From: Pseudomonadota bacterium
Lineage (GTDB): Bacteria > Pseudomonadota > Alphaproteobacteria > UBA2136 > JAPKEQ01
Assembly (NCBI GenBank): GCA_036141575.1
Contig: JAYZXF010000006.1
Location: forward strand, 62,001 to 126,000
Reading direction: 5' to 3'
DNA length: 64,000 bases
Below, piece after piece: positions 46,399-49,139 of the stretch. Each line of letters opens with the position of its first letter. Positions within the stretch are counted from its first letter, which is position 1. The notes under the pieces were generated by a model. It worked only from the letters and a program-made list of their open reading frames with translations, searched no databases and was not told where the DNA came from. Both the position numbers and the translations under genes were made by a program.

Positions 46399-47271
46399 AT
46401 GAAAACGGTTGGTATTTGCGCCCCTTCAAATTGGATTCAGCCAGAACGCTTAGAGCGTGGCACCCATATTCTAAAAAGCCTCGGGGTGGACGTTAAAATC
46501 CACCCGCAGGCCCATGAACGCCATTTCCAGTGCGCAGGTACACATGAGGTTCGCGCAGCAGCCCTTATGGATCTTTATAATGATCCTGATGTCGATATCA
46601 TCATGGCTGCAGCAGGTGGGCACCGCGCCCTACACCTAATGGGTATGCTCGATTACAGTAAAGTTAATAAACCACTTATTGGCTTTAGCGATACCACAGC
46701 ACTGCTCAACGCCACTTTCCACAAAGCGGATGTTACAAACATCTACGGCCCACCCGTTGCAAGCCTAGCAGATGGATGCAATGAGCAAGACTTAGAGACT
46801 CTCAAGACCTTCCTTCATACAGGCACGCTCGACATGCATCTGCCTGCAGAGCTCCTTAAAGAAGGTCAAACAACTGAAGCAAGCCACATCATTGGCGGTA
46901 ATTTCTGCCTATTCAACAACCTGATGAACACAGACTATCAGCCTAAACTTGAAGGTGCTGTTCTTCTACTCGAAGATGACGGCGAAGCGATCCGGAACTT
47001 AGATCGCATGCTCCTGCACCTGAAAAACCAAAGTGTGTTTAATAAGGTGAACGCTGTTGTGTTTGGTGAGTTTACAGAGGTCACAGATGACGAACACACA
47101 GGCCGCCCGTTTGCCGCAGACCTCCGCAGTATTATCGTTGAACATATGCAGGACGTCCCTTGCGCAGTCTATACCAATGCGCCTTTTGGACATGGGACAA
47201 GATTGCAACCCCTCCCCATCGGACATGCACACACCCTCTTGCAGAAAAATGGCCTGTCTTTTTCTTTTTAA
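46399..47271 (+). CDS. LD-carboxypeptidase family (S66) protein
   Basis: 290 residues. GFSDTTALLNA bears the nucleophilic Ser of the Ser-Glu-His triad (family GYSD with Phe for Tyr). VLLLEDDGEAIRNLDRMLLHLK carries the Glu and GHGTRLQPLPIGHAHTL the His region. S66 peptidases trim L,D-bonds in murein tetrapeptides or degrade microcin C7 (MccF); recycling of murein is the default reading. Start ATG at 46399 without a strong ribosome site. It follows putA by 83 bases. Confidence 0.9.
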   Translation: MKTVGICAPSNWIQPERLERGTHILKSLGVDVKIHPQAHERHFQCAGTHEVRAAALMDLYNDPDVDIIMAAAGGHRALHLMGMLDYSKVNKPLIGFSDTTALLNATFHKADVTNIYGPPVASLADGCNEQDLETLKTFLHTGTLDMHLPAELLKEGQTTEASHIIGGNFCLFNNLMNTDYQPKLEGAVLLLEDDGEAIRNLDRMLLHLKNQSVFNKVNAVVFGEFTEVTDDEHTGRPFAADLRSIIVEHMQDVPCAVYTNAPFGHGTRLQPLPIGHAHTLLQKNGLSFSF

Positions 47272-47334
47272 CTTAAATTCATCATAGAGATATTTAACGT
47301 TTCAGGATTGGTGATGAAAAAAGGTGTTTTAAGG

Positions 47335-47362
47335 CTCGCCGTGTACATGCCCGTACATAAGA
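47335..47362. repeat. Intergenic hairpin element, copy E5
   Basis: GTGTAC-ATGCCC-GTACAT followed by AAG, between the S66 peptidase and the DUF1294 gene. Minus-strand reading gives GGCGAGCC then AAAACACC, also found beside copy A. Confidence 0.45.
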
Positions 47363-47399
47363 GGTGCAAAATATCTTTTTTCGCACCAATAAATGCTCT

Positions 47400-47753
47400 A
47401 TGATGAATTTAATGAATAAAAAAGACACATCTTTAGTTAAGCATATCATTGCTGTTGTGCTGGTCACAATTGCCCTGATGACAAGGATCCCACTTATTTT
47501 CTCAGTAATTCTGGCAATGAACATCATTTGCTTCCTGAGTTTTGGCTACGATAAAAAAGCAGCTAAGAAAGGTTGGGGACGCGTACCTGAGCGCACATAC
47601 CTCACACTCGGTTTCCTGAGTGCCTTCCCTGCTCTGCTTCTTGGTCGTAAAGTTTTCCGCCACAAGACAGTGAAGAAAGAGTTCATTATCCCAATGTGGG
47701 GACTGTTTATTTTGCAGGTAGGTTTAGTTGGATACTATTTATATTCTTTATAG
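47400..47753 (+). CDS. DUF1294 family small membrane protein
   Basis: 117 residues from ATG at 47400; two more ATGs follow within 12 bases and no ribosome site decides. Three or so membrane helices. The family hallmarks are FLSFGYDKKAAKKGWGRVPERTYL and RKVFRHKTVKKEF. DUF1294 proteins are inner-membrane proteins of unknown role, sometimes fused to cold-shock domains; no cold-shock domain is present here. Confidence 0.82.
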   Translation: MMNLMNKKDTSLVKHIIAVVLVTIALMTRIPLIFSVILAMNIICFLSFGYDKKAAKKGWGRVPERTYLTLGFLSAFPALLLGRKVFRHKTVKKEFIIPMWGLFILQVGLVGYYLYSL

Positions 47754-47912: not shown

Positions 47913-47944
47913 AACGAATACAGAGCTAACCCTCCCATAAAAAA

Positions 47945-47984
47945 ATCCCCCCTGTGCAGCTTAGCCTGACTGCATAGGGGGGAT
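47945..47984 (-). terminator. Terminator of the candidate structured RNA
   Basis: ATCCCCCC/GGGGGGAT outer stem with an inner TGCAG/CTGCA stem, followed on the minus strand by seven T. Confidence 0.75.
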
Positions 47985-48564
47985 CCGAACTCTCTCACAA
48001 AGAGGGTATCTTCATGAGGGCTCTCATCACTCAAGTTACGAAGTAGCTTTTACGACTGCTAGGAAAGGAGGCAAAGCTCACAGTCAGCTAGAACTTGAGT
48101 GGATTCGATTCGGCTCTGATGGTATTTTTCCGCTTTGGCGCGGTACCATCAGAGGGGTTAAGTTGGTCGGCGGGAAGGATCACCGCGAGCCCATTCGGCC
48201 AGCGCACATCCCTCCCACCTAAATTGACTTTAAACTGTGTGGGCGCTACACCACTCACCAAACAAAAGACCCTGCAGAGGCCTTTTGCTCTTTACTTGCC
48301 CTGTCGTGAGGATTCCCGCTCCTTCCGAATAAAATTCGAAAGTCGGGCACAACAACACAAGTGGCGCACACTACAAAAAACAACCCAAAGGGTTCCCGCC
48401 CTAAGAGGCGTTTTTTGGTAACAGTTTAAAGCCAGAGGCACAGAACCGACAGATTGCCGGTCTGGAATTGGGGCTACATGTGCAGCTCCCATTTGCGAAA
48501 ACAGCAGAGTATGCGCTAAAACCCAAAAAACGGGCCGCACCTCGCCAAGGGAAACATATAGCTT

Positions 48565-48583
48565 CCCCCACAAGTGCCCCCAA
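48565..48583. repeat. C5 tracts at 12-bp spacing inside the candidate RNA
   Basis: CCCCCA at 48565-48570 and TGCCCCCAA at 48575-48583, the C-tracts 12 bp apart as in the pair at 3535-3555. Possibly recombinase arm-type sites or part of the RNA fold. Confidence 0.3.
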
Positions 48584-48720
48584 GATACAGGGGCTTTCAA
48601 GTGATTTCCGCACAACATCGGCCATAACACAGGGCGCCATTCACGCCGGTTTGGTCATCGCCAATTCTAAACAGAGTTGAAATGAATGAAAAAGAATACG
48701 TGGTTATTTCGATAACCATA

Positions 48721-48749
48721 ACTATGGAACACTTTAGAAGACATGTCAA
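48721..48749 (-). promoter_or_regulatory. Sigma-70 promoter of the candidate structured RNA
   Basis: On the minus strand TTGACA (48749-48744), a 17-base spacer, then CATAGT (48726-48721). Perfect -35 and optimal spacing; start of transcription expected near 48713. No reading frame with a ribosome site follows. Confidence 0.6.
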
Positions 48750-48795
48750 GAGACTGTATGCAATTTTTATATTTTTTAAATTCCACATAGAAAAA

Positions 48796-48842: not shown

Positions 48843-49139
48843 TTAAATCGGCATACGAATAATTTCTTGATACGCTTCCGTAGCTCTATCACGAACTGAA
48901 AGCATCGTTTGGAGTGTCAGATCAGCTTTGTTAACAGCATCAATGACATCCTGCACAGCTACGTTTTCACCATTTGCCAGTGCGCCTGTCATGGCTTCAG
49001 CTGTCTTTTGTGCCTGAACTGTTTCACCAACAGCATTCTTTACCATTTGGCCAAACGTTTTACCCGCTTGCTCAGTTCCAGTTGTTGGCTTTGCGCTAAT
49101 CGCATTTGCGATTTGTCCAATTGTGTTTTCAATTTTCAT
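48843..49139 (-). CDS. fliE: Flagellar hook-basal body complex protein FliE
   Basis: 98 residues, all-helical. FGQMVKNAVGETVQ and the C-terminal VIDAVNKADLTLQTMLSVRDRATEAYQEIIRMPI are the FliE signature, the end being the most conserved. FliE joins the MS-ring to the rod. Last gene of flgB-flgC-fliE, 22 bases after flgC. Confidence 0.97.
   Translation of the reverse strand: MKIENTIGQIANAISAKPTTGTEQAGKTFGQMVKNAVGETVQAQKTAEAMTGALANGENVAVQDVIDAVNKADLTLQTMLSVRDRATEAYQEIIRMPI

Follow-up and report, generated by a model that had tools for sequence, protein, structure and literature searches.

A probable new large structured noncoding RNA beside the flagellar genes of a deep alphaproteobacterial lineage

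A gene for a stand-alone, large and structured noncoding RNA of undescribed type is likely to be present in the alphaproteobacterial DNA analysed here (64,000 nucleotides, hereafter the window). This explanation, which includes an architectural role for the RNA, is the best available one for the minus-strand stretch 48714-47938, a gene-free and stand-alone predicted transcription unit encoding an RNA of about 775 nt. Confidence differs among its parts. That this is a new stand-alone structured noncoding RNA is very probable, and its function as an architectural RNA or RNP scaffold, with the folded shape as the working product, is favoured with modest confidence. The initial annotation had already proposed an undescribed RNA here, a reading now supported by the lack of any Rfam match together with strong covariation in a relative.

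The flagellar genes flgB-flgC-fliE lie upstream on the same strand. The end of fliE is at 48843, and a terminator-like site (48815-48799) separates it from the predicted promoter of the RNA. This promoter (48721-48749, minus strand) is composed of a -35 box TTGACA (48749-48744), a 17-nt spacer and a -10 box CATAGT (48726-48721), with 10 of 12 positions matching the sigma-70 consensus, and the equivalent site in the related genome ANT-120, presented below, reads TTGACG-N17-CATACT. An AT-rich upstream element, AAAAATTGCATACA (48755-48768), adjoins the -35 box and is identical in the locus of the relative, L002. At the other end of the unit, folding predicts an intrinsic terminator (47938-47983) with a GGATCCCCCC...GGGGGG stem followed by ATTTTTTT, in agreement with its earlier description. 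The relative harbors a functional equivalent of different sequence, CCCTTCGCA/TGCGAAGGG and then a U-rich tail. This terminator is absent from the output of a simple terminator scan, probably because its stem contains mismatches. Past it, the DUF1294 gene (PF06961; stop at 47753) faces the RNA in convergent orientation. The sequence beyond the terminator is antisense to DUF1294, and the unit therefore cannot be a leader. Only short and overlapping ORFs are found across the RNA stretch, and none of their frames is kept in the relative. The minus-strand promoter, the gene-free stretch and the strong terminator of the initial annotation are thus borne out, with coordinates correct to within a few bases. 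A separate feature of this neighborhood is a long imperfect inverted repeat (47262-47423) between the genes for an S66 peptidase and DUF1294. Its 28-nt arms are 82% complementary and are separated by 106 nt, and the middle part has no second copy within the window; possible readings are a MITE-like element and a bidirectional terminator.

On the minus strand, the 777-nt sequence folds to -324.2 kcal/mol, compared with a mean of -251.3 kcal/mol for dinucleotide shuffles (z -9.1; 0 of 20 shuffles equally stable), whereas the plus strand reaches a z of only -3.9, a difference that supports the strand initially chosen. The several long helices claimed for this RNA are confirmed by this score and by the dense helices of the consensus fold. 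Among them, the helix described as long-range with G-U pairs probably corresponds to the 14-bp helix 48434-48421/48238-48225, which encloses a 13-bp helix (48371-48359/48256-48243) and shows 2 one-sided changes and 1 two-sided change between the two species.

Of 96 related genomes searched at the nucleotide level, a single one, G001, contains a true homologue (locus L002); it is also the sole other genome from this genus. This genome is the Antarctic MAG ANT-120 (homologue contig JAPKEQ010000038.1), which comes from coastal western Antarctic Peninsula water and has the lowest relative evolutionary divergence among the alphaproteobacterial MAGs of the study that described it, 0.66 (PMC10232865), a value indicating a deep lineage. 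The homologue (L002:1508-2262) folds with a z of -5.9 and lies between fliE and DUF1294, an arrangement that is syntenic in both species. A plain alignment of the two RNAs gives 72% identity, which rises to 76% when structure is taken into account; at the four-fold synonymous sites of fliE, flgC and flgB, the same two species are only 48% identical. The flanking intergenic DNA is nearly unalignable (52% in a forced alignment versus 41% for random sequences).

This conservation extends to the structure. A projection test, in which the fold computed from one species alone is projected on the other through a sequence-only alignment, avoids circularity. From the window to ANT-120, 45 of the 81 varied pairs (56%) stay pairable, compared with a mean of 37% and a maximum of 47% for shuffled substitutions, and 22 two-sided compensatory changes are seen (shuffle mean 6.9, maximum 17). 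The reverse projection keeps 57 of 90 varied pairs (63%; shuffle mean 36%, maximum 50%), with 23 two-sided compensatory changes (shuffle mean 6.6, maximum 14). These counts derive from two sequences and carry no tree-based weighting. The structure-aware alignment is biased toward a common structure, unlike the projection test; its consensus comprises 215 pairs, of which 157 are unchanged, 30 differ on one side and 26 on both sides. The 2 remaining pairs are broken and lie in the terminator, whose sequence may vary freely. Compared with column-shuffled alignments, the z of the consensus energy is -12.5 for the RNA strand and -6.1 for the opposite one. Covariation in relatives was a check set for the initial annotation, and its reading withstood it, with strong covariation in the one relative (22-23 two-sided changes). 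A multi-domain fold has been kept by selection in the two species. By contrast with the structure, no reading frame is conserved between them on either strand: in the relative, the ORF frames are broken by indels of 1-2 nt and by in-frame stops, and substitutions are about equally frequent at the three codon positions. A conserved small ORF was rejected on these grounds.

In the consensus fold (window coordinates, minus strand), the predicted RNA (47938-48714) begins with a U-rich and mostly unpaired 5' leader (48668-48714). Domain 1 (48617-48665) consists of an invariant 13-bp stem and a 5-bp apical stem with one two-sided change. It is followed by domain 2 (48494-48612), a multibranch structure with a 9-bp closing stem, three arms and 6 two-sided changes. 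Two small hairpins come next: hairpin 3 (48470-48490), with one one-sided change, and hairpin 4 (48441-48464), with 4 one-sided changes and 1 two-sided change. Central domain 5 (48225-48434) is closed by the 14-bp long-range helix mentioned above, with the 13-bp helix and branches inside, and contains the most conserved module of the RNA (48375-48226). On the 3' side, hairpin 6 (48169-48219) has a 10-bp stem and an inner 4-bp stem, with 4 and 1 two-sided changes, respectively. Hairpin 7 (48114-48154) carries an invariant GCGCCAAAGC tip and 3 two-sided changes in its stems, hairpin 8 (48028-48101) is a long and variable arm that is shorter in the relative and has 3 two-sided changes, and hairpin 9 (47984-48023) has 2 two-sided changes and an invariant GAGAGUUCGGA on its 3' side. 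Sixteen invariant runs of 10-19 nt are scattered across the whole RNA in the two-species alignment. Over the whole length, 81% of paired positions are conserved versus 70% of unpaired ones, suggesting that selection acts on the shape. No candidate for an intramolecular pseudoknot was found among the conserved unpaired columns.

Among the genomes searched, the RNA is restricted to one genus. Two covariance models were used, R1 for the central module (built on 48226-48375) and R2 for domains 1-2. R1 matches only two of 18 genomes of the order, those of the window and of ANT-120, and in 385 alphaproteobacterial genomes R1 and R2 match only the genome of the window. Across the phylum (398 genomes), R2 gives no further credible match; three matches of 16-19 bits were rejected because the second domain is missing. 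Beyond ANT-120, the nucleotide search of the 96 relatives gave only chance matches of 15-50 nt. One of 18 nt, in genome G012, was rejected since it has no flanking similarity and lies inside an apparent lysine-tRNA ligase gene. The syntenic fliE flanks of the 16 other members of the order contain no match to R1 or R2, BLAST against plasmids and phages returned nothing, and exact-motif matches in IMG/VR were rejected for lack of fit to the R1 and R2 models. A motif scan of the genome collection matched only ANT-120. The wide searches relied on exact motifs and on stricter filtering, and may therefore have overlooked distant relatives. A different intergenic region was noted in a genome of a sister family (G004, L045 1735-2250), where the stretch separating fliE from an accD-like gene is also long, folds well (z -4.4) and contains a GATGCTCTTGCG.TCAGCAA-type sequence twice; this stretch has no match to the RNA models.

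Known RNA families were compared with the RNA of both species. In the window and the homologue, no Rfam family reaches its gathering threshold and the matches at E<=10 are at chance level, so that the Rfam scan, another check set for the initial annotation, gave no match in either species. The earlier statement that housekeeping RNAs do not fit likewise stands, as RNase P RNA and a one-piece tmRNA are both encoded elsewhere in the genome. The RNase P RNA (RF00010) is at C11:265700-266041 (304 bits), and the RNA stretch has no match to this family. ARAGORN detects no tmRNA in the window or in L002. A divergent tmRNA was considered, as RF01849 found none in the genome, and was rejected given a one-piece tmRNA gene on contig C1. 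For 6S RNA (RF00013), neither the window nor the remainder of the genome, which is about 98% complete, has a match. Like the RNA predicted here, 6S RNA is a stand-alone structured RNA of housekeeping type, but it folds as one rod with a bubble at its center and measures about 180-190 nt (RF00013, 187 positions).

The tmRNA genes of this order deserve a remark of their own. The gene in the genome of the window (contig C1, L078 1553-1909, minus strand) encodes the tag GNSYDYALAA, and one-piece genes are also found in the same order at L057 1559-1962, L059 1113-1537 and L066 1630-2054. The permuted two-piece tmRNA is the usual form in Alphaproteobacteria. RF01849 is above cut-off in 0 of 18 genomes of the order, and the one-piece tmRNA of this order could indicate a branch that lies below the permutation event.

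The size of about 775 nt, with 215 consensus pairs, falls in the range of large ornate RNAs, as the initial annotation had claimed. The RNA has the several hundred nucleotides and the elaborate, covariation-supported structure that characterize this loose kind of bacterial RNAs. Judged from its sequence, it is a new family within this kind and not a member of OLE, ROOL or GOLLD proper: the covariance models of these three families give no match at the gathering threshold or at E<=10 in the window and the homologue. GOLLD is associated with phages. No such association is seen here, where the locus lies in synteny with flagellar genes, and searches of phage records and, with exact motifs checked against the models, of IMG/VR contigs gave no homologue. 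With ROOL and GOLLD, the RNA nevertheless shares its size class and elaborateness. With OLE, it shares its large size, an extensive multi-domain secondary structure with covariation support, and a palindromic apical loop that stays self-complementary despite sequence change, as reported for OLE L9.3 (PMC12286853); like OLE, it is predicted to be a stand-alone RNA. OLE differs in being about 600 nt and in occurring in Gram-positive bacteria, according to one published account (PMC9723947), whereas the present RNA is about 775 nt and belongs to a deep alphaproteobacterial lineage.

The main rival explanation, a real but lesser possibility, is that of a structured RNA that would work only when bound to protein, for example to the adjacent small membrane protein DUF1294. 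The DUF1294 gene adjoins the RNA in both species, but such adjacency is expected from plain synteny in two congeners, and the gene is transcribed convergently to the RNA and not co-directionally. DUF1294 is a widespread family with no known link to RNA, which counts against it as a partner. A precedent is provided by OLE RNA, presented as part of a membrane-associated RNP in published accounts (PMC12265935, PMC10898510). An improbable alternative is a regulatory RNA acting mainly through base-pairing of exposed loops with mRNAs, the large fold serving as a carrier. The sigma-70-type promoter, the terminator and the partly single-stranded invariant stretches would fit such a regulator, but the higher conservation of paired positions over the whole length points to shape. 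Moreover, bacterial small RNAs of the pairing type are usually 50-300 nt long, which also argues against this explanation.

It is still less probable that the RNA belongs, in a very divergent form, to a known family, whether 6S, RNase P RNA, tmRNA, a group I or II intron, or OLE, ROOL or GOLLD. The missing 6S RNA leaves one housekeeping slot open, but the RNA is about four times the size of 6S and its architecture is multi-domain instead of one long rod; for the known families as a whole, the chance-level Rfam matches in both species and the location of RNase P RNA and tmRNA elsewhere in the genome speak against membership. That the RNA serves as a messenger for small proteins (one or more), or has a dual function, is highly unlikely: short ORFs are present in both species, but their frames are disrupted in the relative and substitutions are even over codon positions, as described above. 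Equally unlikely is that the RNA is the 3' UTR of the flagellar operon or a cis-regulatory leader. The RNA does share the strand of fliE and lie 3' of it, but the terminator-like site after fliE is followed by the RNA's own conserved promoter, and no same-strand gene comes after the RNA, which faces DUF1294.

According to the preferred explanation, that of an architectural RNA or RNP scaffold, the transcript would fold into a compact multi-domain particle rather than act as an antisense regulator, leader or messenger. This particle may be built of two or more copies of the RNA and may include a protein partner. Self-assembly into a homo-oligomer is a tentative proposal. ROOL and GOLLD RNAs self-assemble into multimers, and for OLE L9.3 and GOLLD L21a a switch of adjacent nucleotides between palindromes has been taken as support for symmetric intermolecular kissing loops (PMC12286853). 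In the present RNA, the apical loop 48278-48272 is a candidate symmetric kissing loop. It reads UCUGCAG in the window and UCUAUAG in the relative, so that the 6-nt palindrome (CUGCAG, CUAUAG) is kept through a central GC-to-AU swap, which by analogy hints at self-pairing. As the chance probability of such a palindromic loop is about 0.15 in a shuffle control, and thus not significant alone, the loop is a lead and not evidence by itself. The RNA might then represent a new self-assembling class of large RNA unrelated to OLE, ROOL and GOLLD, encoded by a core chromosomal gene of a deep-branching marine lineage of Alphaproteobacteria and using at least one symmetric kissing-loop contact, a reading that is again speculative.

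Few bacterial RNAs this large and complex are known outside ribosomes, and each such class has so far been unusual, including ribozymes, membrane RNPs and empty RNA cages. The RNA described here is under strong selection (72-76% identity versus 48% at neighboring synonymous sites), yet no described family matches it. Large structured RNAs can thus be lineage-specific and overlooked by searches that need many homologues. With its specific and testable candidate self-contact, this RNA provides probing and cryo-EM studies with a well-defined target.
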